Part shown: in pieces, positions 26,985 through 41,859 of the stretch
Layout: every line of letters begins with the position of its first letter
How positions within the stretch are numbered: position 1 is the first letter of the stretch
Assembly (NCBI GenBank): GCA_902800055.1
Contig: CADCCW010000013.1
Location: 1-64,000, forward strand
From: an uncultured bacterium
GTDB taxonomy: Bacteria; Verrucomicrobiota; Kiritimatiellia; RFP12; UBA1067
DNA: 64,000 nucleotides
Direction: 5' to 3'
The notes under the pieces: model-generated
Databases searched by the model: none
Seen by the model: only the letters and a program-made list of their open reading frames with translations
What the model was told of the DNA's origin: nothing
Translations under genes and position numbers: made by a program

Positions 26985-27944
26985 ATGAAGATATTGATCA
27001 CCGGCTCGGCCGGCTTCATCGGGTTCCACGCGGCGAAGGAGTTCCTGCGCCGCGGCTGGGACGTCGCCGGCGTCGACAACTACTGCGACTACTACGACGT
27101 CAAGCTCAAGCGCGACCGCTCCGCCATCCTGCGGAAGGACGCGCGCTACTTCGAGCGCGAGCTCGACATCTGCGACCTCGACGGTCTCCGCGCGGCGTTC
27201 GCCGAGGAAAAGCCCGACGTCGTCCTCAACCTCGCAGCGCAGCCGGGGGTGAGATATTCGATCGACCATCCGTTCGTCTACCAGAAGACTAATCTCGAGG
27301 GATTTCTCAACATCCTCGAATGCTGCCGTCACGCCCAGAAACGCCCGAAGCTCGTCTTCGCCTCGTCCTCGTCGGTCTACGGCGGCAACAAGAAGATGCC
27401 GTTCGAGGAGTCCGACCAAGTCGACTCGCCGGTAAGCCTCTACGCCGCGACGAAGAAGGCGAACGAACTGATGGCACACGTCTACTCGCACCTCTACGGG
27501 ATGCAGACGATTGGCCTCAGGTTCTTCACTGTCTACGGCGCGTGGTACCGGCCGGACATGGCGCTTTCGCTCTTTGCTGACGCGATGCTCCACGGCCGGC
27601 CGCTCAAGGTGTTCAACCACGGCGAGATGCGGCGCGACTTCACCTTCGTGGACGACATCGTGGACGGGATCGTCCGCGTGGTCGAGTGCGGCAGCCTGCC
27701 GGCCTACGACATCTACAACATCGGCAACCACCGCAGCGAGCGGCTGATGGACGTCATCGAGACGCTCGCTGTCGCGCTCGGGGTGGAGCCCAAGCTCGAG
27801 ATGCTGCCGATGCAGCCAGGCGACGTCCTTGCGACCTACGCGAGTATCGACAAGCTACGCGCGGCGGTCGGCTACGAACCGAAGACCACCATCCGCGAGG
27901 GCATCCCGGTCTTCGCCGAGTGGTATCGCGCCTACCACGGCTGA
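26985..27944 (+). CDS. NAD-dependent UDP-sugar epimerase (UDP-glucuronate 4-epimerase-like)
   Basis: 319 residues. MKILITGSAGFIGFH is the NAD loop; ASSSSVYGG and SLYAATKKANE supply Ser, Tyr and Lys of the SDR active site. LNLAAQPGVRYSIDHP and RFFTVYGAWYRPDMAL match UDP-glucuronate/galacturonate 4-epimerases. It would feed capsule, LPS or exopolysaccharide synthesis. It starts 5 nt after the peptidase stop and ends 6 nt from the convergent LysR gene. Confidence 0.88.
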   Translation: MKILITGSAGFIGFHAAKEFLRRGWDVAGVDNYCDYYDVKLKRDRSAILRKDARYFERELDICDLDGLRAAFAEEKPDVVLNLAAQPGVRYSIDHPFVYQKTNLEGFLNILECCRHAQKRPKLVFASSSSVYGGNKKMPFEESDQVDSPVSLYAATKKANELMAHVYSHLYGMQTIGLRFFTVYGAWYRPDMALSLFADAMLHGRPLKVFNHGEMRRDFTFVDDIVDGIVRVVECGSLPAYDIYNIGNHRSERLMDVIETLAVALGVEPKLEMLPMQPGDVLATYASIDKLRAAVGYEPKTTIREGIPVFAEWYRAYHG

Positions 27945-27950
27945 GGCGCG

Positions 27951-28856
27951 CTACCGCGACGCCGCGATCAGCCTGCGCATGGCCGCCACGAATGCCTCGG
28001 CCTGCTTCGACGGCTGGATTCCCGCGCGCCGAATCGTCCCCACGCTGATCGTCTCGTCCAGCTTGAGCGGAACCGAGACGATCGCCGGGTTGTACGCCTT
28101 GGCGTGGACGCCAGAGGCGACGGTGAACCCGTCGAGTCCCAGGACGAGGTTCGTCATCGTCGCACGGTCGCGCACCCGGATGTTCTTCTTGCGGTCGATG
28201 GCCGGCATGACCTCCTCGGCGAAGTAGAGCGCGTTCTCCACCCCCTGCTCGTATGAGAGGTAGGGGTAGTCGTCGAGCTCCTCCGGGCGGATGAACTTCT
28301 TCCTGGCGAGCGGATGCTTCCGCCCGAGGAACACGTGCGGATTGGCGGAAAAGAGCTCCTCGAAGACGAGCTCCTCCTTCTTGAAGATCTTCTCGAGCGG
28401 CGTCCGGTTGCGCGACGAGAGGTAGAGGACGCCGATTTCGCTGCGGTGGCGGGCCACGTCGTCGATGATCTCGCTGGTCGTCGTCTCCCGCAGGGTGAAG
28501 TCGTAGGCGTCCGCGCCGTTCGCCTTGACGACCTCCATGAACGCGTCGGTCGCGAACGCGAAGTGCTGGCACGACACCGAGAACTGAGGCCTTCTCACCG
28601 CCTTGCCGGTGTACTTCTCGGCGATGCGCGCGGCGTCGTCGAGTATCTGGCGGGCGGAGGCGAGGAACTCCTCGCCCTCGCGCGTCACGGTGATGCCGCG
28701 CGCGGAGCGGGTGAAGATGGCGGTGCGGAGCTCTTCCTCGAGCGCGCGAATCGACTCGGTAAGCGTCGGCTGCGTGACGAACACCCGCCGCGCCGCCTCG
28801 CTGATGCTGCCGTACGTCGCCACCGCGTCGGCGTATTTCATCTGCTGTAGTGTCAT
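27951..28856 (-). CDS. LysR-type regulator, CysB/CmbR-like
   Basis: 301 residues. MTLQQMKYADAVATYGSISE and the helix-turn-helix ARRVFVTQPTLTESIRALEE are the LysR DNA-binding domain; the remainder is an effector-binding domain. The N-terminus resembles regulators of cysteine/methionine genes, which makes it a candidate for the shared operator at pdxS, cysK and metY; this is inference. TATAAT (minus strand, 28864-28869) ends 7 nt before the ATG, so the message is probably leaderless. It is followed on the same strand by no other gene. Confidence 0.85.
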   Translation of the reverse strand: MTLQQMKYADAVATYGSISEAARRVFVTQPTLTESIRALEEELRTAIFTRSARGITVTREGEEFLASARQILDDAARIAEKYTGKAVRRPQFSVSCQHFAFATDAFMEVVKANGADAYDFTLRETTTSEIIDDVARHRSEIGVLYLSSRNRTPLEKIFKKEELVFEELFSANPHVFLGRKHPLARKKFIRPEELDDYPYLSYEQGVENALYFAEEVMPAIDRKKNIRVRDRATMTNLVLGLDGFTVASGVHAKAYNPAIVSVPLKLDETISVGTIRRAGIQPSKQAEAFVAAMRRLIAASR

Positions 28857-28864
28857 AAAGCGAA

Positions 28865-29446
28865 TTATACCATTTTGGCCGTCGCCGCGCCAGTTGGCGG
28901 TGCGAGTTCGGGATGCCAGGTGAAGGCGGTGATATTCCTCCAGCGGACGGCGGTCGGGGCGCCGTTAAAGGTCGACAGCGTCTCGATTTCCGGCGAGAGC
29001 ACAGCGGTTATGGCCGGTGCTCGGATGAAGGTCATCGTCATCCCGCTCCTACCGTCGAAGTTGCCGACGGTCGTGAAACTGCCAAGCTGGCGGCCGTAGG
29101 CGTTGCGCCTGACCGCCACGGGAAGCGAGCCGAACCACCGCTCGGGGCGTGTCTCGTCTCCATGGCGGCCCGGGTCGTCGATCCGCTCCGCGAGCAGGAT
29201 CAGCCCCGCGCAGGTCGCGAATACGGGAAGCCCGCCGTCGATCGCCTGTTTGAGCGGAGCGAAGAGCCCGAGGTCCTTGAGGAGCTTCCCCTGCACGGTT
29301 GACTCGCCGCCGGGCAGGGCGAGGAGATCCATGCCGTGGTCAAGGTCGGCGGGCTGCCGGATCTCGAAGACTTCCGCGCCTTTCCCGCGCCAGTACGCCT
29401 CCATCTCGGCGAACGCGCCCTGGACCGATAGCACCCCGACTTTCAC
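28865..29446 (-). CDS. pdxT: pyridoxal 5'-phosphate synthase glutaminase subunit
   Basis: 193 residues. [28 protein letters not shown], the nucleophile Cys in [11 protein letters not shown] and TWHPEL (His-Glu of the triad) are all present. It releases ammonia from glutamine and passes it to PdxS for PLP synthesis. The start overlaps the pdxS stop by 4 nt, so the pair is translationally coupled. Confidence 0.94.
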
Positions 29447-30315
29447 TTTCCGCGCTCTTCCATGATGGTCTCGATTTCCTCGGCGTTAATGCCGACCATC
29501 GCGGGCCCAAGGTTCTCAGAGAGCTTCGCAAGAAGCTTCGAGTCCTGCCAGTTGGTGACCGCCTGAACGATCGCCGCCGCGCGCTTCGCGGGGTCTCCCG
29601 ACTTGAAGATGCCGGAGCCCACGAACACGCCCTCGGCGCCAAGCTCCATCATCAGCGCCGCGTCCGCCGGCGTGGCGACGCCGCCGGCGGCGAAATTGAC
29701 GACAGGAAGCTTCCCGTTCGCGTGCACATACTTCACGAGATCAAGCGGCGCGGCGAGCTCCTTCGCCGCCTCGTAGAGCTCGTCCTCGCGGAGCGAGACG
29801 ACCCGGCGGATCTCGCTCTGCATCTTGCGCATGTGGCGGACAGCCTGGACGACGTCGCCGGTTCCGGGCTCGCCCTTGGTGCGGATCATCGTCGCGCCTT
29901 CGCCGATCCGGCGCAGCGCCTCGCCGAGATCGCGCGCGCCGCAGACGAAGGGGACGTCGAACTTCGTCTTGTCGATGTGCCGCGTGTCGTCGGCGGGGGA
30001 AAGCACCTCCGACTCGTCGATGTAGTCGATCTCGATTGCCTCGAGAATCCGCGCCTCGGCGATGTGTCCGATGCGGCACTTTGCCATCACCGGAATTGAG
30101 ACGGCGTTTTGAATCCCCTTGATCATCGCGGGGTCGCTCATGCGCGAGACGCCCCCCGCCGCCCTAATGTCGGCGGGGATGCGCTCCAATGCCATCACCG
30201 CGCACGCGCCGGCGGCTTCGGCGATCTTCGCCTGCTCGGGTGTCGTCACGTCCATGATCACTCCGCCTTTGAGCATTTGCGCGAGGTTGCGGTTAAGTTC
30301 CTGTCGGTTGCTCAT
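29443..30315 (-). CDS. pdxS: pyridoxal 5'-phosphate synthase lyase subunit
   Basis: 290 residues from the ATG at 30315, which follows AGGAGAGG; a longer frame begins at 30342. [32 protein letters not shown] (with a conserved Lys) and [17 protein letters not shown] are PdxS signatures. It condenses ribose 5-phosphate, glyceraldehyde 3-phosphate and ammonia into PLP. Its promoter carries the bipartite element shared with cysK and metY. Confidence 0.95.
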
Positions 30316-30348
30316 TTTCCTCTCCTGGTTTGGGTTAGACACAGGATA

Positions 30349-30416
30349 GTATACTCTATGTCGGAGGTATAAGGATAATCGGAATTATCTTTGCCCATCC
30401 ATAGGAAGAAACTATT
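30349..30416 (-). promoter_or_regulatory. pdxS promoter with shared bipartite operator
   Basis: On the minus strand TATACT (plus 30349-30354) is the -10. Sixteen nt upstream is the element read on the plus strand as AAGGATAATCGGAA (30371-30384), then 14 nt, then CCATAGG-AAGAA-ACTATT (30399-30416). The same two blocks with identical spacing stand before cysK and metY. Here the palindrome is degenerate (CATAGG against ACTATT). It overlaps the stop codon of the lysE-type gene. Confidence 0.75.
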
Positions 30417-31047
30417 AGAGGGAAATGTTCGCCGCGAGCACCGCGACGACCGCGGCAAGCATGATCGCCGAGACGAGCTTCAGCGCGGCCGTTGCCTTGA
30501 CGGAGTCGACGAGTCTTTCGCGGAAGAAGTCAGCCGCCACGATCGCCGGAAGGTAGATGAAGGGCACGAGCGCGCAGAACAGCGTTCCGAGGAGCAGCGT
30601 CTGCACCGCCGGCGACAGCGTCGAATCCGTGCTGGTGAAGCTCGGCAGAAAGGCGAGGAAGAAGAGAATCGTCAGCGGATTCGACATCGACATCGCGATG
30701 CCGCGCAGGAACAGCCGCATGCCCTGTCCGGTCGCGGGGCGAAGCGCGTCGGGCGAGGCGGCGCGGAAGCTTCGAACTGCGTCGGCGAAGGCGCCGTAGG
30801 CGAGATACGCGATATAAGCGGCGCCGGCGACCTGGATTGCCGTCATCGTCGCCGGATGGGCGGTGAAGAATGAGGCGACGCCTGCCGTCAGGAGGAGAAT
30901 CCAGATCCAGCATCCGGCGACGAGCCCCAGCATCAGCGTGGCGGCGCGCGCCTTCCCGTCCGAGAGCGCCGTCGCGATGGTGCAGGTCAGGTCCGGCCCG
31001 GGCTTCACTATCAGCGCCAGCGACCCGATGATGTAGGTTGTCAGCAT
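30415..31047 (-). CDS. LysE-family amino acid exporter
   Basis: 210 residues with about six membrane helices. TYIIGSLALIVKPGPDLTC carries the PGPD motif of the LysE/RhtB family, and MSMSNPLTILFFLAFLPSF the second conserved block. Such proteins export lysine, threonine, homoserine or cysteine-type compounds. TATAAT ends 7 nt before the ATG, so the mRNA is probably leaderless. It lies directly upstream of the pdxS promoter. Confidence 0.88.
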   Translation of the reverse strand: MLTTYIIGSLALIVKPGPDLTCTIATALSDGKARAATLMLGLVAGCWIWILLLTAGVASFFTAHPATMTAIQVAGAAYIAYLAYGAFADAVRSFRAASPDALRPATGQGMRLFLRGIAMSMSNPLTILFFLAFLPSFTSTDSTLSPAVQTLLLGTLFCALVPFIYLPAIVAADFFRERLVDSVKATAALKLVSAIMLAAVVAVLAANISL

Positions 31048-31183
31048 GGTGGGGATTATACCATATTCTCGCGTCGTGCTGCATCGCGACAATTACAATG
31101 CTTGTAAGGTGAGCTGGCGGAGAAGGGCGGCGATTGTAAAGAAGGTGTGTTCGAGATCAGGATTTTGGCCGTCATTTTGGCGT

Positions 31184-31199
31184 TGGCACGGGTTCTGCT
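31184..31199 (+). promoter_or_regulatory. sigma-54-type promoter of amtB
   Basis: TGGCACG-GGTT-CTGCT matches the -24/-12 consensus TGGCACG-N4-TTGCW with one change (CTGC for TTGC). The GG (31185-31186) and GC (31197-31198) have the required 10-bp gap. Transcription would start about 31210, 19 nt before the ATG. Nitrogen control of ammonium transporters by sigma-54 and NtrC is well known. No NtrC site was clear to me. Confidence 0.6.
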
Positions 31200-31228
31200 T
31201 TTTGACCTTGCAAACCGAAAGGACAACC

Positions 31229-32566
31229 ATGAAAGTCAAAAAAAGGTATGTAGTGCTAATGAGTCTGGTGGCGCTGGTCGCGGCAATCGGGGCGTTCTTC
31301 CCCGAGACGCCCGGCATCTGGGAGCCGGACGAGAAGTTCAACGCCGCGAACGTCGCCTGGATGATCACTGCGACGATCTTCGTCCTGATGATGACGCCCG
31401 GTCTCTCGTTCTTCTATGGCGGCATGGTGGGGCGCAAGAATGTGATCTCCACGATCCTCCAGAGCTTCATCGCCATGGGCATCATCTCCATCCTCTGGGT
31501 GGTCGTGGGCTTCTCGCTGAGCTTCGGCGACGACGTCGGCGGACTCGGGCTCATCGGTAGCCCGTCGCAGTTCTTCATGTTCAGGGGCGTCGGCGCGAAG
31601 GTGAACGAGGCGATCGCGCCCACCATTCCGCTCGCGCTCTTCGCGCTCTTCCAGATGAAGTTCGCGATCATCACCCCGTCGCTCATCACCGGCGCGTTCG
31701 CCGAACGCGTGCGCTTCTCGGCCTACCTCGTGTTCATGATGCTCTTCTGCGTGTTCATCTACTGCCCGCTCGCGCACTGGACGTGGCATCCGGACGGATT
31801 CCTCCACAACCTGATGGGCATCGGCATCCACGACTTCGCCGGCGGCATCGTCGTCCACGCCTCCTCGGGCGTGGCCGCGCTCGCGGGCGCACTCTTCCTC
31901 GGTCGCCGCACCAAGACGCCCAATGCGCCGACCCTGCCGGCGAACATCCCGTTCGTCATCCTCGGCGCGGCGATGCTGTGGCTCGGCTGGTTCGGCTTCA
32001 ACGGCGGCTCTTCGCTGGCGGCTGACGGCATCGCGGTCAAGGCGTTCCTCAACACCAACACCTCCGGCGCCACGGCGATGATGGCGTGGGTGCTCTTCGA
32101 CTGCCTGCGCGGGCGCAAGCCGTCCGGCATGGGCGCCGCCGTCGGCGCGGTGGTCGGCCTGGTGGCGATCACGCCGTGCGCCGACGTCGTCACGATCGGC
32201 CAGGCGTTCACCATCTCCTTCCTCACCACCCTCATCTGCAACGTGGCGGTCTACTGGAAGGCGCACTCCCGCATCGACGACGCGCTCGACGTCTTCCCCA
32301 CCCACGGCGTCGGCGGCATCGTAGCGACCATATTCACCGGCGTGTTCGCGCAGACCGGGCTGATCGCCTGGACCCACGCGGGCTTCATGGAGTTCGTCGC
32401 CGCCGTCGCCGGCGTCGCGATCGTCATCGCCTACACCTTCGTCGTCAGCATGCTGCTCTACTGGATCACCAACCGCATGATCGGGATGCGCGTCTCGCCG
32501 CCATGCGAGGCCGCCGGACTGGACCTCAGCCAGCACGACGAGCTCTACTGCCCCTCGGCGTCGTAA
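31229..32566 (+). CDS. amtB: ammonium transporter
   Basis: 445 residues with about eleven membrane helices. MMTPGLSFFYGGMVGRKNV, the first pore His in YCPLAHWTWHP and the second in DVFPTHGVGGI are Amt signatures. It moves ammonium across the inner membrane under nitrogen limitation. A PII (glnK) gene, the usual partner, is not adjacent. ATG 31229 follows AAAGGAC. A sigma-54-like promoter lies upstream and a bidirectional terminator downstream. Confidence 0.94.
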   Translation: MKVKKRYVVLMSLVALVAAIGAFFPETPGIWEPDEKFNAANVAWMITATIFVLMMTPGLSFFYGGMVGRKNVISTILQSFIAMGIISILWVVVGFSLSFGDDVGGLGLIGSPSQFFMFRGVGAKVNEAIAPTIPLALFALFQMKFAIITPSLITGAFAERVRFSAYLVFMMLFCVFIYCPLAHWTWHPDGFLHNLMGIGIHDFAGGIVVHASSGVAALAGALFLGRRTKTPNAPTLPANIPFVILGAAMLWLGWFGFNGGSSLAADGIAVKAFLNTNTSGATAMMAWVLFDCLRGRKPSGMGAAVGAVVGLVAITPCADVVTIGQAFTISFLTTLICNVAVYWKAHSRIDDALDVFPTHGVGGIVATIFTGVFAQTGLIAWTHAGFMEFVAAVAGVAIVIAYTFVVSMLLYWITNRMIGMRVSPPCEAAGLDLSQHDELYCPSAS

Positions 32567-32594
32567 AGGAGGTGCCGGATTCCGCGGCAAAGCA

Positions 32595-32628
32595 AACGGG
32601 GCGCGCCATTTTTGCGGCGCGCCCCGTT
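32595..32628. terminator. bidirectional terminator between amtB and cysK
   Basis: AACGGGGCGCGCC and GGCGCGCCCCGTT form a 13-bp GC-rich stem around ATTTTTGC. It sits between converging genes, followed by short T-runs on both strands. Confidence 0.75.
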
Positions 32629-32647
32629 GCTTTCCTCCGATGTCGGC

Positions 32648-33571
32648 CTACTCAAACAGCCAGGTCGAGAGGTAGCGCTCGCCTGTGTCGGGCAGGAGCG
32701 CGACGATCGTCTTGCCGGCGAACTCGGGCCGCTTCGAGAGCTCCAGCGCCGCCCAGAGCGCCGCGCCGGACGAGATGCCGACGAGGAGCCCCTCCTGCGC
32801 CGCCGCCGCGCGCGCCGTCGCGCCCGCGTTCTCGGCGGAGGCCTTGATGACCTCCGTCAAGATCGAAGTGTCGAGCACCTTCGGGACGAAGCCAGCGCCG
32901 ATGCCCTGGATCTTGTGGGGACCGGGCTTGCCGCCGGAGAGGACTGGCGAGGTGTCCGGCTCCACGGCGAAGAGCTTCACGTTCGGGTTTTTCTCCTTCA
33001 GGTACTTGCCCGTTCCCGTGATCGTGCCGCCGGTGCCGACGCCGCCAACGAACGCGGCGACTTCGCCGTCCGTGTCCGCCCAGACCTCCGGGCCGGTGGT
33101 GCGGTAGTGGTAGTCCGGGTTCGCCGGGTTCTCGAACTGCTGCAGGATCACCGCGCCGGGCGTCGAGTCCCTGAGCTCGTTCGCCTTCGCGATCGCGCCC
33201 TTCATGCCTTCCGCGCCGGGCGTGAGGACGATCTCCGCGCCGTAGGCCGCCGCGAGCTTGCGGCGCTCGATGCTCATCGTCTCGGGCATGGTGAGGATGA
33301 GGTGGTAGCCCTTTACCGCCGAGACGAGCGCGAGGCCGACGCCGGTGTTGCCGCTCGTGGGCTCGATGATCGTCGCGCCCGGCTTGAGGACGCCCGACTT
33401 CTCGGACGCCTCGACCATCGAGAGCGCGATGCGGTCCTTGACGCTTCCGCCTGGGTTGAAGAACTCGACCTTCGCGAGCACCTTCGCCCCGCCCTTGTTA
33501 AGTTTGCTCGAGATCTCGACGAGCGGCGTGCCGCCGACTTTCGCCAAGATGTTCTTTGCCGTGTTGCTCAT
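32648..33571 (-). CDS. cysK: cysteine synthase A
   Basis: 307 residues from the ATG at 33571, which has CAGGAGG upstream. FNPGGSVKDRIAL holds the PLP lysine, EPTSGNTGVGLA binds the amino acid, and GVGTGGTITGTGKYL the phosphate. It makes cysteine from O-acetylserine and sulfide. Its promoter has the clearest copy of the shared palindromic operator. It is last in a minus-strand run metY, DUF3034-like, BASS, cysK. Confidence 0.95.
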   Translation of the reverse strand: MSNTAKNILAKVGGTPLVEISSKLNKGGAKVLAKVEFFNPGGSVKDRIALSMVEASEKSGVLKPGATIIEPTSGNTGVGLALVSAVKGYHLILTMPETMSIERRKLAAAYGAEIVLTPGAEGMKGAIAKANELRDSTPGAVILQQFENPANPDYHYRTTGPEVWADTDGEVAAFVGGVGTGGTITGTGKYLKEKNPNVKLFAVEPDTSPVLSGGKPGPHKIQGIGAGFVPKVLDTSILTEVIKASAENAGATARAAAAQEGLLVGISSGAALWAALELSKRPEFAGKTIVALLPDTGERYLSTWLFE

Positions 33572-33633
33572 TGATGCCTCCTGTTTAGATGGTTGGTTTA
33601 TGCTGTTTTCCATTTGGGTGGTTGATGCCGTGT

Positions 33634-33702
33634 ATTGTACTACATCTTACGGCCCAAAGGGTAATCGGAATGTTTTCCGGTTGCCCATAGGATGGTCCTA
33701 TG
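33634..33702 (-). promoter_or_regulatory. cysK promoter with shared bipartite operator
   Basis: Minus-strand TACAAT (plus 33634-33639) is the -10. After 17 nt comes AAGGGTAATCGGAA (33657-33670, plus strand), then 14 nt and the perfect palindrome CATAGG-ATGGT-CCTATG (33686-33702). Relative to transcription the first block covers the -35 region and the palindrome lies near -65, the usual layout for a LysR-type activator. Confidence 0.8.
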
Positions 33703-34702
33703 CTGGGTCGTTTCCGGACGGACGCGGCGTGCGGCGGCTCCAGAAACCGGCGAGGACGGAGCCGGAGAAGTCCATCCAGATGGAGAAGACGTTTGCCGGC
33801 AGCGCCGCCACCGGGCTGCCGAGGACGCCGATCGCGAGCGCGCCGGCCATGCCGCCGTTCTGGAGCCCGACCTCGATCGCCACCGTGCGTGCCTCGACTT
33901 CGCCCATGCGGGTGAAACGCGCGGAGAGGCGCGTCAGCCAGTATCCGACCAGGTAGCCGATCGTGTTGTGGATGACGGCGGCGGCGACTATCGCCACGCC
34001 CGCCGAGGCGAAGGTGCTCCTGCTCGGTGCCGTAAGCGCCATGAGGGTGAAGCAGATGCCGGTCATCGAGAGGATTGACAGCGCGCGGTCGCACGCCGCC
34101 TTGTGCGCGTCGAACTGGCGCCGCAGAAGCCGATGGACTATCCCGCCCGCGAGGATCGGCACGATCACCACCTTCAGGATCTCGACCATCATCTTCGCCG
34201 CGTCGATTTCCACGAAGCATCCGGCCAGCACCTTCATCGCCACCGGCGTCAGGAACGGGGAGAGAAGGGTGGAGCAGCAGGTCATGGTGACCGAAAGCGC
34301 GACATCGGCCTTCGCGAGGAAGGCGATCACGTTCGACGCCGTGCCGCCGGCCACCGACCCGACGAGCACGCATCCCGCCGCCAGCTCCCCGGAGAAGCCG
34401 AACGACTTCGCGAGGAGAAAGCCGACCAGCGGCATCACGAGGAACTGGAGCGCGACGCCGGTCGCCACCGCCCACGGACGCTTCGCGACGCGCAGGAAGT
34501 CGTCGACCGACAGCGTCGTGCCCATCCCGAACATGATGATCTGGATCGCCGGAACGACGAGCGAGACCAGCTTAACCCCGCCCCATTCGTCGAAGGCCGA
34601 GGGAAAGGCGAACGCCACCGCCGCGCTCGCCAGGACGGCGATGCCGAATGCCTGGCGGCGGACGGCGGCGAATGTGCCGCGAATGATGCCCATGGTTCCC
34701 AT
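33698..34702 (-). CDS. bile acid:sodium symporter (BASS) family transporter
   Basis: 334 residues with about nine or ten membrane helices. PAIQIIMFGMGTTLSVDDFL, GSVAGGTASNVIAFLAKAD and EVGLQNGGMAGALA are BASS family blocks, including the crossed-helix sodium sites. The bacterial proteins carry organic acids or related anions; here the substrate is unknown, though the location among sulfur genes may be relevant. TATAAT ends 6 nt before the first ATG, so the message is probably leaderless. Its 3' end overlaps the cysK operator. Confidence 0.88.
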   Translation of the reverse strand: MGTMGIIRGTFAAVRRQAFGIAVLASAAVAFAFPSAFDEWGGVKLVSLVVPAIQIIMFGMGTTLSVDDFLRVAKRPWAVATGVALQFLVMPLVGFLLAKSFGFSGELAAGCVLVGSVAGGTASNVIAFLAKADVALSVTMTCCSTLLSPFLTPVAMKVLAGCFVEIDAAKMMVEILKVVIVPILAGGIVHRLLRRQFDAHKAACDRALSILSMTGICFTLMALTAPSRSTFASAGVAIVAAAVIHNTIGYLVGYWLTRLSARFTRMGEVEARTVAIEVGLQNGGMAGALAIGVLGSPVAALPANVFSIWMDFSGSVLAGFWSRRTPRPSGNDPA

Positions 34703-34760
34703 GCGCGTATTATACCAAATACCGGAGGCGCATGGGCTGCGGCGCGGTGCCGCGCCGGGA

Positions 34761-35660
34761 TTAGAACTGGTACTGCACGCTGAGGACGAACCCTCCGCCG
34801 ACGCCGAGGCGGTCCGTCCTGCCGTCGCGGTAGAAGCGGTCCTTGTCGCCCGTGTAGGCGTAGGCGCCGACGAGCGTCAGCGAGTCCGTCACGAACCACG
34901 CGACGTGCCCGTCGAAGTAGTCGTGGTTGGTTATGCCGTCGCCGACGTGCACGCCCTGCTTGTACTCGAAGCCGATCGCGATCTGCTCGACTGGGATGAG
35001 GTCGATGTTCGCGAAGACGGCGGCGCCGTACTTGTTGTGCCCGACCACGCCATTCACGACTTCGTCCGAGAGCAGTCCGCCGACGGAGAGGAGCACCGGT
35101 ATCGGAGTCTCCTTGACGAGCTTCGTGGCGACGACGTATCCGTCGAAGCCGTGGTGCTTCAGGCCGAGCGCGTCGACCGTCTCGGAGTCGGTGTACTTGT
35201 ACACGCCGCCGACGGCGAGCGCCGGGACCCAGGACGTGTCAAACGCGTTCTCGTCGAGGAAGCGCAGTTTCGCGCCGACGTTGTACTTGTTGATGGAGTT
35301 GTCGCCGTAGTTCTTGGCGTTGACGAACTCGTAGCCGCCGGAGATCTCCAGCCGGTCCAGCAACGTCACCGCCGCGCCGAGCGAGAACCAGTTGATCTCC
35401 GCGTCGGTCAGGTTGACGTACCATCCGCCGACCTGCGGCCGCGACACTATCCCGTCCAGCGCGGAACGCTCCGCGTCGTTGGTCCCGCCTCCGGAACCGT
35501 CCCATGGTCGGCCTGCGGTATACGCAAGCGGGTTGAAGGCAATGCCTCCGGTGCCCTGCAGGTTGTTGAGCGGGACTCCCGCCGTGAGTGTCGAAGCCGC
35601 CGCGACCACAACGGATGAGATTACGGTGCGGACGAATTTCCTGTTGATGTTGTTGTTCAT
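34761..35660 (-). CDS. outer-membrane beta-barrel protein, DUF3034-like
   Basis: 299 residues with a signal peptide ending STLTAG. The mature start (VPLNNLQGTGGIAFNPLAYTAG) and alternating hydrophobic strands ending in the aromatic C-terminus LSVQYQF indicate an outer-membrane barrel; the N-terminal part resembles DUF3034 proteins. It lies just after metY on the same strand, separated by a hairpin, with AAGGAG before its ATG. A role in uptake of a sulfur compound is plausible from position only. Confidence 0.65.
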   Translation of the reverse strand: MNNNINRKFVRTVISSVVVAAASTLTAGVPLNNLQGTGGIAFNPLAYTAGRPWDGSGGGTNDAERSALDGIVSRPQVGGWYVNLTDAEINWFSLGAAVTLLDRLEISGGYEFVNAKNYGDNSINKYNVGAKLRFLDENAFDTSWVPALAVGGVYKYTDSETVDALGLKHHGFDGYVVATKLVKETPIPVLLSVGGLLSDEVVNGVVGHNKYGAAVFANIDLIPVEQIAIGFEYKQGVHVGDGITNHDYFDGHVAWFVTDSLTLVGAYAYTGDKDRFYRDGRTDRLGVGGGFVLSVQYQF

Positions 35661-35706
35661 TTTCTATGCTCCTTGTTTGGTGTTTCTGTTTGTTTTCTTA
35701 TAAATT

Positions 35707-35733
35707 GTCCGTCCGGGACCATCCCGGACGGAC
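35707..35733 (-). terminator. hairpin after metY
   Basis: GTCCGTCCGGGA and its exact complement form a 12-bp stem with a 3-nt loop. On the minus strand it is followed by AATTTATAAG rather than a T-run, so termination may be partial and the DUF3034-like gene may be read through. Confidence 0.6.
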
Positions 35734-35741
35734 CGGGGGGA

Positions 35742-37037
35742 TTAGATCGTCTCCAGCGCCCGGTCGAGCTCCGCGACGATGTCGTCGATGTGCTCGAGTC
35801 CGATGGAGAGCCGGACCAGCTCCGGCAGGACTCCGCCCTTGCGCAGGTCCTCGTCGGAGAGCTGCGAGTGGGTCGTCGAGGCCGGGTGGATGACGAGGCT
35901 CTTCGCGTCGCCGACGTTGGCGAGGAGCGAAAAGATCTCGCCGTTGAGCGCGTCCGCGAAACATCGGGCCTTCTCCGCGCCGCCCTTGACGCCGATGACA
36001 ACCATCCCGCCCGCGCCGTTCGGCAGGTACTTCCTGGCGAGCTCCGGCTGGGTGAGCGAAGGATACTTCACCCACGCCACCTTCGGGTGCTGCTCGAGGT
36101 GCTTCGCGACCGCGAGCGCGTTCTCGCTGTGGCGGGCGATCCTGAGCGGCAGCGACTCCACTCCCTGCAGGAACACCCACGCCGCGTCCGGCGCGAGCGT
36201 CGGGCCCTGGTTGCGGATGCCGACCGTGAGCAGCCGGATTGAAAACGCCACCGGCTTGAGCGGCTCAGGGAGGTCATGCGCGAACCTAAGCCCATGGTAG
36301 CCCGCGTCCGGCTCGTTGTAGAGCGCGAACCTGGGGTTCGCCCAGTCGAACCCGCCTTTCTCCACCACGACGCCGCCAATGCCCGCGCCGTGCCCGCCAA
36401 TCCACTTCGAGAGCGAGTGGATCACGAAGTCCGCGCCGTGGTCGAGCGCCCGCAGGAGCGGCGGCGGCGTGAACGTCGCGTCGACGACGAGCGGCAGGCC
36501 GTGGCGGTGCGCGACCTCGGCATAGCCTTCGATGTCCGCGATGTCAAGGGCGGGGTTGCCGACCGCCTCGATAAAGAGAAGCCTAGTCTTCTCGTTTATC
36601 GCCGCTTCGACGGCCCCGAAGTCGTTCACCGGAGTGAAGTTCACCTTGATGCCAACGTTCGGGAGAATCGCGTCGAACTGGCTGAAGGTGCCGCCGTAGA
36701 GGTTGCTCGCCGCGACCACTTCGTCACCCGCGCGGGCGATGTTGGTGATTGTGAAGTAGATCGCCGCCGTGCCGCTGGAGAGCGTCTGCGCCGCCGCGCC
36801 GCCCTCAAGCGCCGCGATGCGCTTGGCGAGCACGTCGTTCGTCGGGTTCATGAGCCGCGCGTAGATGTTGCCGAGCTCGCGGAGGCCGAAGAGGTCCGCC
36901 CCGTGCTTGGAGTCGCGGAAGTTGTAGGCGGTGGTCCGGTAGACCGGCACCGCCCTCGCCTTGGTCGCGGGGTCGCCGAATGCGTCCTGCCCGGCGTGCA
37001 CCGCCAGCGTCTCGATGTGGTATTTTTTCTCGCTCAT
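35742..37037 (-). CDS. metY: O-acetylhomoserine sulfhydrylase
   Basis: 431 residues. VPVYRTTAYNFRDSKHGADLFGL and IYARLMNPTNDVLAKRIAALEGG are typical of O-acetylhomoserine aminocarboxypropyltransferases, and VIHSLSKWIGGHG holds the PLP lysine. It forms homocysteine directly from sulfide, giving methionine without transsulfuration. Strong AAAGGAG lies before the ATG. Its promoter has the shared bipartite operator, as expected for a sulfur regulon. Confidence 0.93.
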   Translation of the reverse strand: MSEKKYHIETLAVHAGQDAFGDPATKARAVPVYRTTAYNFRDSKHGADLFGLRELGNIYARLMNPTNDVLAKRIAALEGGAAAQTLSSGTAAIYFTITNIARAGDEVVAASNLYGGTFSQFDAILPNVGIKVNFTPVNDFGAVEAAINEKTRLLFIEAVGNPALDIADIEGYAEVAHRHGLPLVVDATFTPPPLLRALDHGADFVIHSLSKWIGGHGAGIGGVVVEKGGFDWANPRFALYNEPDAGYHGLRFAHDLPEPLKPVAFSIRLLTVGIRNQGPTLAPDAAWVFLQGVESLPLRIARHSENALAVAKHLEQHPKVAWVKYPSLTQPELARKYLPNGAGGMVVIGVKGGAEKARCFADALNGEIFSLLANVGDAKSLVIHPASTTHSQLSDEDLRKGGVLPELVRLSIGLEHIDDIVAELDRALETI

Positions 37038-37074
37038 TGCGTTCTCCTTTCCTGGTTGCTTGTCGATGGCGTGT

Positions 37075-37143
37075 ATTATCGCATATTTGGCGAGCCAAAG
37101 GGTAATCGGAAAAAGAGCCCAATGTCCATAGGACGAGCCTATG
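37075..37143 (-). promoter_or_regulatory. metY promoter with shared bipartite operator
   Basis: Minus-strand GATAAT (plus 37075-37080) is the -10. After 17 nt is AAGGGTAATCGGAA (37098-37111), then 14 nt, C and the perfect palindrome CATAGG-ACGAG-CCTATG (37127-37143), extended by one more C-G pair. Spacing is the same as at cysK and pdxS. Confidence 0.8.
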
Positions 37144-37197
37144 GTGCGGCCTATTGGCGATTGACGGCGGACGGCGGAATTGATACACTACACACAA

Positions 37198-37698
37198 ATG
37201 AACGACATAACTTTCGAGCAGGCATGGAACTACGGCGGCCCCCTGATGTGGGTGCTGGCCGGCTTTTCGGTTTTCGCGCTGGCGGTGGTGCTTTACCTCT
37301 GGCTTGCGCAGGCGCGCTGGCTCTTTCTGCCGCGGGCGCTGAAGCGGGTGGCGAGCGCCAAGGACCCGGAGGCGGAGGGCGCGCGCATCGCGCGCGAGGC
37401 CAACGCGGCGGTCGACTGGCTCGCGGACGTCGCGGCGATCGCCCCGCTGGTCGGGCTGCTCGGCACGGTCCTCGGCATGTTCAAGGCGTTCGGCGGCATC
37501 GCGAGCGACGTCGCCGCGGGCGCCAAGCCGGTGGTGCTGGCCCAGGGCGTGTCGCAGGCAATCGTGACCACGATCCTCGGCCTCGCGGTGGCGATTCCGT
37601 CGCTGGTCGCGTACGCAATCATGCGGCGGCGCGCGGCGAAGCGCATCTCCGAGCTTGAGGCGGCGGCCGAGGAAGTGCTCGCCGGGGGCGCGCGATGA
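37198..37698 (+). CDS. exbB: MotA/TolQ/ExbB proton channel protein
   Basis: 166 residues with three membrane segments. DVAAIAPLVGLLGTVLGMFKAF and VSQAIVTTILGLAVAIPSLVAY are the MotA/TolQ/ExbB signature. With ExbD it forms a proton-driven motor that energises outer-membrane transport or the Tol system. A TGATACACTAC promoter lies just before the ATG. It overlaps exbD by 4 nt. TonB or TolA is not in the window, so ExbB versus TolQ is not settled. Confidence 0.88.
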   Translation: MNDITFEQAWNYGGPLMWVLAGFSVFALAVVLYLWLAQARWLFLPRALKRVASAKDPEAEGARIAREANAAVDWLADVAAIAPLVGLLGTVLGMFKAFGGIASDVAAGAKPVVLAQGVSQAIVTTILGLAVAIPSLVAYAIMRRRAAKRISELEAAAEEVLAGGAR

Positions 37699-38114
37699 AG
37701 TTCGACGACTCCGCGCGCTCGCGGGCGCCGGCGCTGGCGCTGACGTCGATGCTCGACGTCATCTTCCTGCTCTTGTGCTTCTTCGTCACCGTGAGCGTGT
37801 TTTCGCAGTGGGAGAGCGAGATCTCGATCAAGCTTCCCACCGCGGCGACCGGCGAGCAGCCGGAGCGTCTGCCCGGCGAGATCATCGTCAACCTGTCCAA
37901 GGACGGCACGGTCCGCGTCAACGGCACCACGCTCACGCTCGACGACCTGCAGTCCCGCCTCGCGAAGATCTCGAAGTTCTACCCTGGCCAGCCGGTGATC
38001 ATCCGCGCTGACCGCGACACCAAGTACGAGAGCCTCGTCGCGGTGATCGACTCCTGCCGCGCCGCCGACGTCTGGAACTTCTCCCTCGCCACCGAGAACG
38101 AGCCCGCGAAGTAG
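37695..38114 (+). CDS. exbD: ExbD/TolR biopolymer transport protein
   Basis: 139 residues: a short cytoplasmic N-terminus, one membrane helix (LTSMLDVIFLLLCFFVTVSVF, with the proton-carrying Asp), and a periplasmic domain with VNLSKDGTVRVNG and VIIRADRDTKYESLVAVID. It is translationally coupled to exbB and is its partner. Confidence 0.9.
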   Translation: MKFDDSARSRAPALALTSMLDVIFLLLCFFVTVSVFSQWESEISIKLPTAATGEQPERLPGEIIVNLSKDGTVRVNGTTLTLDDLQSRLAKISKFYPGQPVIIRADRDTKYESLVAVIDSCRAADVWNFSLATENEPAK

Positions 38115-38199
38115 GCTTCGTCGCTTGCTTTTCCCGCGGCGGTTTTGCTATACTATGCGCGTCTTCGGGCGAGTGTCCGGAGCAAGGAGGCAAACTGGC

Positions 38200-38406
38200 A
38201 TGAGCGGACGAGAACTTAACAACCGAATAGAGTACATGGTGACGTGTACAAGTCTCGTTTCTTTAAGAAGCTGCAGGATCCGGAGACGGGATTGTATCGC
38301 GAATCAAAGGCTTATCTCATACGGAGATTCAACCAGGAAATCTCAAACCGCAAACCGAAAGACAGACCTTCAAGCCGCCTCCAGAAGCGTCGTCTCTCGG
38401 ATCGTG
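38200..38406 (+). pseudogene. gene remnant, DUF3791-like start joined to another tail
   Basis: A TATACT promoter (about 38148) and AAGGAGG lead to ATG 38200. The first codons give MSGRELNNRIEYMVTC, like the start of DUF3791 proteins of toxin/antitoxin-like gene clusters, and then the frame loses sense. From GTG 38244 another frame reads YKSRFFKKLQDPETGLYRESK, which looks like the C-terminus of a different protein, to a stop at 38406. This looks like an internal deletion that fused two ends out of frame. The 266 bases up to the RhuM-like gene hold repeats only. Confidence 0.4.
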
Positions 38407-38460
38407 GTTGACTGTCCCCGCCGCATGCGCGGCAGTTTGCGTATTTCCGAGCACGAGTGG

Positions 38461-38481
38461 TTTATGCAAAATTTGCATAAA
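38461..38481. repeat. 21-bp palindrome
   Basis: TTTATGCAAA and TTTGCATAAA flank one A. It lies in the gene-free stretch before the RhuM-like gene; a GCGGCAGTTT unit is about 30 nt upstream. It may be a protein site or a small mobile palindrome. Confidence 0.55.
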
Positions 38482-38672
38482 ACCTCTTGGTTTGGAGAAT
38501 GACACTGATGAGAAGTCGGAAACCCACTCCGCTGCGTTGCGGCAGTCCGCACGGCAGCGCGGGGAAATATCCGCACAATCAAGCGTGGATTTTGGTATGC
38601 TATGCTTGCCCCGCGAAGCGTAGGGCGCGACGTGAGTGGATATGAGAAGTGTAAACATAGAGTAAAACCAAT

Positions 38673-39218
38673 ATGAATACTTCAAGCGATAAAGAAGTCG
38701 TAGTCTACAAGACTGCCAGCGGCGATGAATTGCCAGTCAGAACCGACGGAGAGACCGTGTGGATGACGGTTGATCAGATGGTTCTTTTGCTTGGAAGGGA
38801 TCGCACAGTAATTCTGCGACATGTGAATAATGCCATACAAGAGGGAGAGTTGAACAGAAGCATTAATGTGCAGAAATTGCACAATATTCAGTCAGGCAGA
38901 GGGCGCCCGTTGCTGATTTACGACCTTGATGTCCTAATATCCGTTGGCTATCGGGTGAAATCGCCTGAAGGTGTGCGATTTCGGCGCTGGGCGACCCGTA
39001 TTCTCCGCGAGATGCTGCTGAAGCGCGTGGACGAGGTGCGGGAGATCGCCAAGCTGCGGCGGCGTATGGATGCCGCGGAAGGTGACATCAAGCAGATCAA
39101 GGGCGGTATGAGCTACCTCGTGAAGCAGCTGTCTGCCCCTGAAACGCCGCGCCGCAAGGTCGGGTTCGGCGCCAAGCCCGGCGAGACGTCGGCAACCCCC
39201 TACGGCCGCGCAAAGTAG
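38673..39218 (+). CDS. RhuM-family protein, N-terminal part
   Basis: 181 residues. ETVWMTVDQMVLLLGRDRTV, ILRHVNNAIQEGEL, and VQKLHNI then YDLDVLISVGYRVKSPEG match the DNA-binding-like N-terminus of the RhuM family. Full-length relatives are about 330 residues; here a coiled coil (MDAAEGDIKQIKGGMSYLVK) and a short basic tail replace the C-terminal domain. RhuM-like genes occur often in restriction and other defence clusters, as here just before hsdR. Function is unknown. Confidence 0.75.
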   Translation: MNTSSDKEVVVYKTASGDELPVRTDGETVWMTVDQMVLLLGRDRTVILRHVNNAIQEGELNRSINVQKLHNIQSGRGRPLLIYDLDVLISVGYRVKSPEGVRFRRWATRILREMLLKRVDEVREIAKLRRRMDAAEGDIKQIKGGMSYLVKQLSAPETPRRKVGFGAKPGETSATPYGRAK

Positions 39219-39489: not shown

Positions 39490-41856
39490 TTGGCCCAAAT
39501 GATCTTAGACAAGAAACAGATGACGGAAGAGGACATCAAGCTGCAGTTCATCACGCCTGCAATTGAGTCCAAGTGGGGCCGTGATCGCATGACAATGGAG
39601 ACTAAGATCACCGACGGAAGGGTCAACATCAGGGGGAACTTCGTTGTTCGCGGAAAACAAAAGAAGGCCGACTATGTCCTCTATCTCTCGTCCAACAAGC
39701 CGATTGCCATCGTCGAGGCGAAGGACAACAACCATTCCGTTTCCTATGGTCTCCAGCAGGCGATAACCTACGCCAAGATGCAGGACATCCCGTTTGCCTA
39801 CAGCTCAAACGGCGACGGCTTTCAGGAGCACGACCTCTTGACGGGGCTGGAGCGCACCCTGCCGCTCGATGCGTTTCCGACCGTAGAGGAGCTTTCCGCC
39901 CGCTGGGAGCGCGAGTCAAACGGTGGCGCGGGCATCTCCCCGGACGAGAAGAAGATCGTCGCCGAGCCATATTATTCCAGTCAGGACACGTATGATCCGC
40001 GCTACTACCAGCGCAACGCAATCAACCGCGCCGTCGAGGCGATCGCGCGGGGGCGGAAGCGCCTCCTGCTGGTGATGGCGACCGGAACCGGCAAGACATA
40101 TACGGCGTTCCAGATCGTCTACCGCCTGCTGAAAAGCGGTCTTTGCAGGAAAGTCCTGTACCTCGCCGACAGGAACAACCTCGTGGACCAGTCGATCCAG
40201 CAGGACTTCGCGCCGCTTGAAAAGACGATCCACAAGGTCAACTTCGCCAAGGACGACCCCGTGACCATCACCTCGCATGAAGTGTTCTTCTCGCTCTACC
40301 AGCAGCTTGCGGGCGACGAGGAAGGCGGCGACGAAGGCGACGGAGAGGAAACCGTCGCCAGGTTCGCCAAGCTTTTCAGCAAGGACTTCTTCGACCTCGT
40401 CATCGTCGACGAATGCCACCGGGGGTCCGCGAAGAAGGACAGCAATTGGCGCAGGATCCTCGACTATTTTTCCTCGGCCACGCAGATTGGCATGACCGCG
40501 ACGCCAAAGGAGACGAAGTACGTCTCCAACATCGACTACTTCGGCGACCCAGTCTACACGTACAGCCTGCGCGAGGGAATCGACGACGGCTTCCTCGCGC
40601 CGTTCAAGGTGATCAACGTCACGACCGACATCTCGGACGGCTGGCGTCCCAGAAAAGGGCAGCTGGACAAGTTCGGCAACGAGATACCGGACCGCATCTA
40701 CACCAACTCCGACTTCGACTACAACCTCGTCCTCGAAGACCGCACGCGCCAGGTGGCAAAGGAGATCACCAACTACCTGAAGCGCACCGGCAGGATGCAG
40801 AAGACCATCGTGTTCTGCGCCACCGAGGAGCACGCCGAGCGCATGCGCATCGAGCTGAACAACCTCAACGCCGACATGGTGAAGGAGAACCCGGACTACG
40901 TCGTCCGCATAACCGGCTCCGACGTCTACGGCAAGAGCAAGCTCGACTACTTCATTTCTGTCTCTGCTCCGTATCCTGTCATTGCGACGACTTCCAAGCT
41001 GCTTTCCACCGGCGCGGACTGCAAGATGACCAAGCTCATCGTCCTCGACGAGATGATCGGCTCGATGACCGAGTTCAAGCAGATCATTGGGCGCGGCACC
41101 CGCCTGCGCGAAAAGGACGGCAAGAGCTTCTTCGTGGTGATGGACTTCCGTAACGTGACGCGGCTTTTCGCCGATCCCGACTGGGACGGGCCGATTGAGA
41201 TCGACGAGGGGTTCAATCCCGGCCGCCGTCCGTCGTTGCCGCCGCCGGGGCCAGGCGTCGATCCGCCTCCGCGGCCACCCGTCGGCAAGTTCTTCGTCGA
41301 TGCGACCGGCTGCGAAGTCCATATCGCCGGCAAGAGGGTCTCGATCTACGATGCCGACGGCCGGCTGCTTGCCCAGGAAAGCATCGTCGACTACACCAAG
41401 ATGAACATCATCGGCAAATACGCCTCTCTCGACAACTTCATCCACCAGTGGAGCGCCGAGGAGAAGAAGGCCGCCATCCGGGAGCTGCTGATGTTCGAGG
41501 GCATCGACCTCGACGCGCTGAAGGCGGAGGAGGGGATGTCCGATGTCGACGACTTCGACTTCATCTGCCACGTCGCCTTCGACCAGAAGCCGCTCACGCG
41601 CCGCGAAAGGGCGGAGAACGTCAAGAAGCGCGACTTCCTGAGCCGCTACGGCGGCGTCGCGCGTGAGGTCCTGGAAGCGCTGCTCGAGCGGTACAAGGAC
41701 GTCGGCGTATACGAGATCGAGAATACGGCTATACTGCAGCTTGATCCGTTCAGGAAATTCGGCAAGCCCGCGAAGATCGCCGAGTCGTTCGGCGGCAGGG
41801 AAGGGTACTTGAGCGCCGTCCGCGAACTCGAGGAAGAACTTTACAAAGTAGGATAA
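39490..41856 (+). CDS. hsdR: type I restriction enzyme, R subunit
   Basis: 788 residues from TTG 39490; ATG 39499 is also possible. PIAIVEAKDN (residues 71-80) is the nuclease motif with E76 and K78. VMATGTGKTYTAF (about 195-207) is Walker A, VDECHRG the DEAD-type box, GMTATPKE motif III, and QIIGRGTRLREKDG motif VI. It is of the EcoEI-like type and cuts DNA after translocation, guided by HsdM and HsdS. A Pro/Gly-rich linker (RRPSLPPPGPGVDPPPRPP) precedes the C-terminal domain. hsdM starts 3 nt after its stop. Confidence 0.93.
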   Translation: MAQMILDKKQMTEEDIKLQFITPAIESKWGRDRMTMETKITDGRVNIRGNFVVRGKQKKADYVLYLSSNKPIAIVEAKDNNHSVSYGLQQAITYAKMQDIPFAYSSNGDGFQEHDLLTGLERTLPLDAFPTVEELSARWERESNGGAGISPDEKKIVAEPYYSSQDTYDPRYYQRNAINRAVEAIARGRKRLLLVMATGTGKTYTAFQIVYRLLKSGLCRKVLYLADRNNLVDQSIQQDFAPLEKTIHKVNFAKDDPVTITSHEVFFSLYQQLAGDEEGGDEGDGEETVARFAKLFSKDFFDLVIVDECHRGSAKKDSNWRRILDYFSSATQIGMTATPKETKYVSNIDYFGDPVYTYSLREGIDDGFLAPFKVINVTTDISDGWRPRKGQLDKFGNEIPDRIYTNSDFDYNLVLEDRTRQVAKEITNYLKRTGRMQKTIVFCATEEHAERMRIELNNLNADMVKENPDYVVRITGSDVYGKSKLDYFISVSAPYPVIATTSKLLSTGADCKMTKLIVLDEMIGSMTEFKQIIGRGTRLREKDGKSFFVVMDFRNVTRLFADPDWDGPIEIDEGFNPGRRPSLPPPGPGVDPPPRPPVGKFFVDATGCEVHIAGKRVSIYDADGRLLAQESIVDYTKMNIIGKYASLDNFIHQWSAEEKKAAIRELLMFEGIDLDALKAEEGMSDVDDFDFICHVAFDQKPLTRRERAENVKKRDFLSRYGGVAREVLEALLERYKDVGVYEIENTAILQLDPFRKFGKPAKIAESFGGREGYLSAVRELEEELYKVG

Positions 41857-41859
41857 AAC

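Follow-up and report, generated by a model that had tools for sequence, protein, structure and literature searches.

A two-block element proposed as the operator-promoter of a LysR-type sulfur-amino-acid regulon in Kiritimatiellae

Described regulators of sulfur and cofactor genes

The closest described counterpart of the element analyzed here is the MET box, TATAGTTTnAAACTATA, the operator of the LysR-type regulators MtaR of Streptococcus agalactiae, MetR of S. mutans and CmhR of S. pneumoniae. According to the accessible parts of two papers (PMC2627894, PMC5359408), mutation of the MET box lowers expression in S. pneumoniae, CmhR activates methionine genes, and the named targets of these regulators are metE, metF, metQ, metB and folate genes. 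CmhR is also present in Lactococcus lactis (PMC5359408). Here we analyze a two-block element upstream of pdxS, cysK and metY in a 64,000-nucleotide (nt) stretch of DNA from an uncultured bacterium of the Kiritimatiellae (contig CADCCW010000013.1, positions 1 to 64,000), hereafter the window. From sequence comparisons we consider it likely, with a probability of about 0.87, that the LysR-type protein encoded at 27951-28856 controls a sulfur-amino-acid regulon for which this element serves as operator-promoter.

The likeness to MtaR, MetR and CmhR lies in a LysR-type regulator and an ATAG-N7-CTAT palindrome of the T-N11-A form, and the palindrome, to judge by its bases, is related to the MET box but richer in G+C. 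The interior differs, being TTT-N-AAA in the MET box and G-N5-C in Kiritimatiellae, and the strict MET-box sequence was not found here. Unlike the MET box as published, the Kiritimatiellae element includes a further half-site at constant spacing, and its proposed targets are metY, cysK, pdxST, a DUF3034 gene and glutamate-cysteine-ligase-like genes rather than the methionine and folate genes listed above. The putative kinship to the MtaR/CmhR regulators is judged by operator and neighboring genes. An earlier note on this DNA, made from its letters, had known of no described motif of this form; the palindrome turns out to be a MET-box variant, whereas the rigidly spaced second half-site and the inclusion of pyridoxal 5'-phosphate (PLP) synthase among the targets appear to be new.

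CmbR/FhuR of streptococci and lactococci is likewise of the LysR type and regulates cysteine and methionine genes. Its site in S. pneumoniae, where the accessible text describes it as a repressor, is GYGATAAAAAWWAYTTATMAC (PMC5131005), from which the window sites differ by inspection. Escherichia coli CysB and MetR, also LysR-type sulfur regulators, share 27% and 23% identity with the window LysR over ∼200 residues, and full-length homology to CysB was not found (27% over 212 residues; 54.5 bits compared to a cut-off of 436 for NF009326). PdxR, a protein of the MocR family, is known to regulate pdxST in several Gram-positive bacteria; in the accessible parts of two papers, apo-PdxR activates and PLP counteracts in several species (PMC5320631, PMC6522883). 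Control of pdxST is common to both systems, but PdxR belongs to another protein family and follows another logic, while here a LysR-type protein would tie pdxST to sulfur enzymes. Characterized LysR proteins are described, in the accessible part of one source, as having a recognition site of high affinity and an activation site of low affinity (PMC11739112). A literature search that was thin on subscription journals, with sources accessible in part, found no LysR link among pdxS, cysK and metY, a Listeria paper naming the genes separately, and no title retrieved on Kiritimatiellae named such a subject.

The element in the window, the family and the order

The two-block element occurs exactly at 30371-30416, 33657-33702 and 37098-37143, upstream of pdxS, cysK and metY, where the earlier note had placed it. 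On the gene strand all three copies read ATAG(G/T)-N5-CCTAT, 16 nt, TTCCGATTAYCCTT, 17 nt and a -10 hexamer. Both spacings are the same at all three sites, with 16 nt from the block to the palindrome core (14 nt to CCATAGG) and 17 nt from the block to the -10 hexamer, in agreement with the 14-nt gap and the 16 to 17 nt reported before. The ATAG-N7-CTAT core and the T-N11-A palindrome are present in every copy; the palindrome is perfect at cysK and metY, again as noted earlier, and has one altered arm base at pdxS. The joint pattern gave three matches in the window and none in 100 shuffles. With up to 3 mismatches, it gave three in the source assembly (2.29 Mb in 61 contigs, 90.1% complete) and none when reversed. 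A weight model, applied with strict filters that may lose weak matches, returned only the same three sites from this assembly at an expectation value (E) of ≤0.05 (9e-15, 4e-13 and 2.9e-10). The pair of blocks at fixed spacing is thus significant, unlike the first block alone, which at 3 mismatches was found nine times against 5.3 expected, with as many in 7 of 100 shuffles; the first block by itself was accordingly rejected as a signal. No good -35 could be read in the window promoters, which fits activation.

The scan of the genome and its relatives suggested in the earlier note found the pattern (≤3 mismatches) in 54 of 114 family genomes. The reversed control was found in 0 of 114, and random matches were therefore rejected as an explanation. 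When 31 gap lengths were allowed and no mismatch in the specified bases, 54 of 57 exact matches had one and the same gap, one was shorter by one and two were longer by one. We aligned 94 distinct sites on the pattern (95 sites, two of which have one 43-mer in common). T2 is present in 100% and A14 in 99%, both positions belonging to the search pattern, and each base of the ATAG-N7-CTAT core, likewise found with a pattern containing those bases, reaches at least 95%. At operator position 5, 88% of these Kiritimatiellae sites have G, the half-site being mostly ATAGG. Bases between the blocks are mostly low in information while the blocks themselves are conserved. The alignment also has an extended -10 (majority TGnTATAAT, positions 60-68), and since this lies outside the searched pattern it is independent evidence that the element would serve as a promoter. 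The weight model, built from 70 of 75 non-redundant family sites, extended the count at the loose threshold of E ≤0.05 to 73 of the 114 genomes, in 11 of the 19 genera. Three of these genera (g9, g10 and g14), beyond the eight that have pattern sites, are each represented by a single match, with E between 0.01 and 0.05.

Sites and LysR genes occur together. With rows truncated at the 5' end excluded (two metY, three pdxS), a site lies within 400 nt of metY in 46 of 49 cases in genomes with the LysR compared to 2 of 10 in genomes without it; for pdxS the figures are 30 of 45 and 2 of 18. This supports the idea, put forward in the earlier note, of one regulon over pdxS, cysK and metY. Weak LysR matches, of 20 to 42% identity except for a short 90% piece in one genome (G048), were left aside. 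LysR and pattern sites are found in the same 8 of 19 genera. At the order level (161 genomes, model E ≤1e-5), 53 genomes have both, 5 the site only, 12 the LysR only and 91 neither. Among the 47 genomes of the order outside the family, the LysR occurs once and the site once, in the same genome (G169) and on the same contig, ∼50 nt apart. The LysR adjoins sites in many, though not all, loci, and does so in several arrangements: in tandem upstream of metY, divergent from metY, last in pdxS-pdxT-lysR, and after cysK. The protein that the earlier note had proposed as regulator is therefore supported as the best candidate by its co-occurrence with the motif across the order.

The genes behind the sites were classified for 126 sites with a readable downstream gene, out of at least 150 places found by the model (24 without a fetched locus). 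Matches before sulfur, methionine or PLP genes had been expected, and 98 of the 126 sites precede metY, pdxS, cysK or a glutamate-cysteine-ligase-like gene. The first downstream gene is metY at 52 sites (7 genera), pdxS at 29 (5 genera), cysK at 8, a GCS2-type gene at 8 and a GshA-type gene at 1. Because the GCS2 and GshA genes (Pfam 2.3e-10 and 2.4e-44) fall below the NCBIfam cut-offs for glutamate-cysteine ligases, we name them only as ligase-like. These genes and the DUF3034 gene, also found behind sites in relatives, go beyond the gene set of the earlier note. The two outcomes which that note had named as counting against it, absence of the motif from orthologous genes and matches before random genes, were both looked for, and the results did not refute it. 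Among metY loci with at least 3.5 kb of downstream sequence, 18 of 24 run metY-DUF3034-cysK, and five of these 18 continue into pdxS. None of metE, metF and metQ was recognized as first gene at the 126 sites, of which 12 precede unnamed or unclassified genes, with no search aimed at these three. At one site (L087) a suspected MarR gene gave way to an unnamed protein encoded closer to the site.

Relatives of the LysR-type protein in other lineages

The best 80 of 287 confirmed LysR relatives in named genomes were examined. Sixty-five of these, with 65 to 88% identity, come from metagenome-assembled genomes (MAGs) titled Kiritimatiellae, Verrucomicrobia, Lentisphaerae or unnamed, and one Akkermansia; the nearest named ones, titled Kiritimatiellae or Verrucomicrobia, are from rumen and gut. 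The Akkermansia contig (sp. RGIG7361, locus L144) has a 74% LysR after pdxT, and its label or binning is doubtful. The other 15 come from Bacillota (Lachnospiraceae, Eubacterium, Oribacterium and others), with 50 to 54% identity over the full length; the identity comparison took 14 of 23 Kiritimatiellae rows and 14 of the 15 Bacillota loci. The window LysR matched 50 NCBIfam families, of which the 25 listed are all far below cut-off, and a name from this source was rejected. Solved structures gave no match at 1e-20 and 33 sequences at 1e-5, all but one of which match only about the first 100 residues.

In 11 of the 15 Bacillota loci an ATAG-N7-CTAT palindrome stands directly beside lysR, and in eight of these it is exactly ATAGTTTnAAACTAT, which corresponds to the central 15 bases of the MET box. 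The remaining four (L183, L186, L192 and L193) have no ATAG-N7-CTAT beside lysR; L186 has a near-MET box ahead of a metY-like gene. The site-side gene was identified with Pfam in six Bacillota loci, as full-length MetE (L179, L187), short MetE-type (L181, L185, L188) and methylenetetrahydrofolate reductase (L191), the remaining loci being judged by length only. A further site (L220) precedes a protein resembling the short MetE type, by reading and without a family search. The Lachnospiraceae genome of L185 has a second MET box (L185:8322-8336), 243 nt before a radical-SAM/DUF512 gene.

Six of 32 records of plasmid-borne LysR relatives (41 to 45% identity) were also examined. In Enterococcus raffinosus, metE-metF lie divergent from the LysR gene with ATAG-N7-CTAT in between; in Rhodococcus the same holds for methionine synthase and MesX; and in Priestia a MetE-type gene lies behind a MET box. 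The record of a Streptococcus suis relative was considered as a possible MtaR, and this was rejected: it reads only LysR family, and the accessible part of PMC12063423 was of no help.

The second block was searched in the 15 Bacillota genomes as ATAGTTTnAAACTAT followed by GTATTTTT with gaps of 4 to 34 allowed. This gave seven matches in seven genomes, all with a gap of 19, and none in the control; 8 of the 15 genomes had no match. In a common numbering, the Bacillota TGTAT falls at positions 34-38, the place of the Kiritimatiellae CCGAT. The same second block can be seen by inspection at the Roseburia plasmid site and less clearly in Priestia, Enterococcus and Rhodococcus. Since the second block keeps its offset in Bacillota, the bipartite layout is probably old.

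A lead to the difference between the two operators comes from residue 34 of the LysR, which we take to lie in the recognition helix, as in LysR-DNA structures. All 23 aligned Kiritimatiellae rows have Glu at this residue, and 12 of 14 Bacillota rows have Asn. At operator base 5, Kiritimatiellae mostly have G, and nine of the 11 lysR-adjacent Bacillota sites have T. Residue 34 and base 5 may thus form a specificity switch, but because the two groups also differ elsewhere in the helix region, this is only a lead.

A proposed regulon and its alternatives

Assuming a transcription start 7 nt past the -10 hexamer, the palindrome is centered at about -67 and the CCGAT half-site at about -39, 28 base pairs (bp) apart, close to the -65 and -35 given in the earlier note as typical of LysR-type proteins. 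We propose that a LysR tetramer would place one dimer on ATAGG-N5-CCTAT (recognition) and the other on CCGAT (activation), and would aid RNA polymerase at promoters with an extended -10 but without a good -35. By analogy with characterized LysR proteins, the LysR would bind the element and activate, an effector shifting the tetramer to its activating state. This effector may be a precursor that signals sulfur shortage, such as O-acetylhomoserine, O-acetylserine or homocysteine. The Kiritimatiellae LysR would read a G+C-rich half-site and command the sulfide-fixing enzymes together with synthesis of their cofactor PLP. As lysR lies behind pdxST, positive autoregulation would be expected. The regulon would serve two sulfide-fixing PLP enzymes together with PLP synthase, and in relatives also genes that resemble those for the initial step in making glutathione; a plausible, natural reading of this set is that PLP supply would be matched to demand.

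Several observations weigh against this proposal. The weight model was trained on sites of the same genomes that it scanned, and the order-level association (Fisher 8e-25) is uncorrected for relatedness. In genomes with the LysR, 15 of the 45 pdxS genes have their nearest 400 nt free of a site; some of these sit behind cysK or DUF3034 in a site-bearing cluster and others are unexplained. At E ≤1e-5, 12 of 65 LysR genomes have no site; at E ≤0.05, eight of these show a weaker site and the other four (G001, G026, G047 and G101) none. Conversely, no LysR was detected in 5 of 58 site genomes (G025, G037, G041, G078 and G100, which are 66, 91, 75, 75 and 88% complete). Other genes follow 28 of the 126 sites: DUF3034 at eight, genes without evident relation at seven, and 13 others (carbonic anhydrase at four, an unnamed protein at four, metY-like genes at two with one identical site, and DUF2490, a second unnamed gene and LysR pieces at one each). 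Among the plasmid relatives, that of Roseburia has a MET box and no methionine gene, that of S. suis (44%) has neither palindrome nor methionine gene, and that of Paenibacillus, in an unannotated record, has no palindrome beside the gene. The absence of sites or methionine genes from some plasmid relatives slightly lowers our confidence in the regulon.

Two of the exceptions call for separate mention. The LysR pieces just downstream of a site in G100 (L108, contig C92; 85% and 58% identity), a genome in which no full LysR was detected, reflect either decay or faulty assembly. Four MAGs of two genera (L085, L090, L091 and L106) share an identical site-bearing carbonic-anhydrase promoter, through cross-binned contigs or recent transfer.

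Three other explanations were weighed. The palindrome and the block in the -35 region could be bound by two different proteins, the block being, for example, the -35 element of an alternative sigma factor, and the overlap of the block with the -35 region speaks for this. We nevertheless regard it as improbable: 54 of 57 matches have exactly the same spacing, the half-site CCGAT resembles the palindrome arm CCTAT and two sites have ATCGG-N5-CCGAT arms, the Bacillota sites are A+T-rich in both parts (ACTAT arm and TGTAT block) at the same offset, and the -10 is of the sigma-70 extended type.

That the LysR merely stands near the element through operon history, with some unlinked regulator binding it, is a still weaker candidate. 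Co-occurrence is correlation, and the five site genomes without a detected LysR fit such a regulator, but the LysR and the sites share their genera and the single genome outside the family, adjoin each other in several arrangements and, in Bacillota, include a related palindrome beside the LysR relatives; the T-N11-A form also fits a LysR-type protein. Least probable of all, in our judgment, is a passive duplicate, a promoter copied inside one gene cluster without a common regulator. Such copying would suit three window sites within 7 kb and the frequent metY-DUF3034-cysK clusters, yet in many genomes the sites lie on separate contigs (C5 and C22 of G087; C10, C16 and C19 of G028; C68, C175 and C177 of G021), the bases between the conserved blocks carry little information, and orthologous genes in LysR-less genomes mostly have no site. 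A LysR-run operator-promoter remains the reading that we prefer.

The features are listed in Table 1. The pdxS and cysK open reading frames as listed start at 30342 and 33613, which gives leaders of ∼0 and 14 nt past the presumed transcription start, and the ATG codons in the table are the likelier starts. No Rfam family matched the leaders at gathering score within 27000-39000, and riboswitch control of these genes was rejected on this ground. As lysR begins 8 nt past pdxT, pdxS-pdxT-lysR probably form one operon. Gene spacing suggests that metY-DUF3034-bass is probably another; that the DUF3034 protein serves uptake of a sulfur compound is a guess. Upstream of pdxS, the operator palindrome abuts the stop codon of a LysE-type gene. 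Elsewhere in the window, at 39490-43335, two adjoining long open reading frames resemble type I restriction and modification subunits, as read from their translations.

Table 1. Positions of the proposed operators, promoters and genes in the window
Feature	Position	Strand	Remarks
pdxS operator, LysR-type recognition palindrome ATAGT-N5-CCTAT (T-N11-A)	30401..30415	-	centre ∼-67 from presumed start
pdxS operator second block TTCCGATTATCCTT, half-site CCGAT	30371..30384	-	putative activation site, ∼-43 to -30
pdxS -10 hexamer TATACT	30348..30353	-	
cysK operator palindrome ATAGG-N5-CCTAT	33687..33701	-	overlaps stop codon of BASS transporter gene
cysK operator second block TTCCGATTACCCTT	33657..33670	-	
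cysK -10 hexamer TACAAT	33634..33639	-	
metY operator palindrome ATAGG-N5-CCTAT	37128..37142	-	
metY operator second block TTCCGATTACCCTT	37098..37111	-	
metY -10 hexamer GATAAT	37075..37080	-	
LysR-type regulator, 301 aa, proposed cognate regulator	27951..28856	-	HTH_1 (PF00126) 3e-17, LysR substrate-binding domain (PF03466) 6.5e-14
pdxT, PLP synthase glutaminase subunit	28865..29446	-	TIGR03800 above cut-off
pdxS, PLP synthase lyase subunit	29443..30315	-	TIGR00343 above cut-off; presumed start ATG 30315
cysK, cysteine synthase A	32648..33571	-	TIGR01139 above cut-off; presumed start ATG 33571
metY, O-acetylhomoserine/O-acetylserine sulfhydrylase family	35742..37037	-	TIGR01326 above cut-off
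DUF3034 protein, 299 aa	34761..35660	-	probably co-transcribed with metY
BASS/PanS-type transporter	33698..34702	-	probably last gene of metY-DUF3034-bass

A broader and tentative picture, which we hold at somewhat less than even odds, is that of a MET-box LysR group reaching from Bacillota to Verrucomicrobiota and perhaps Actinomycetota, in which a bipartite operator with a half-site 28 bp off decides which MET boxes work. The Kiritimatiellae regulator, perhaps acquired from gut Bacillota, would have moved from ATAGT to ATAGG through recognition-helix changes, Asn to Glu at residue 34 among them, and would have been redirected toward sulfide fixation, glutathione and PLP supply. The second half-site, with its constant spacing, would then be a possible extra determinant of MET-box function. 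For this uncultured gut lineage, the regulon proposed here would provide a defined sulfur regulon in which PLP supply is tied to the PLP enzymes that make cysteine and homocysteine.

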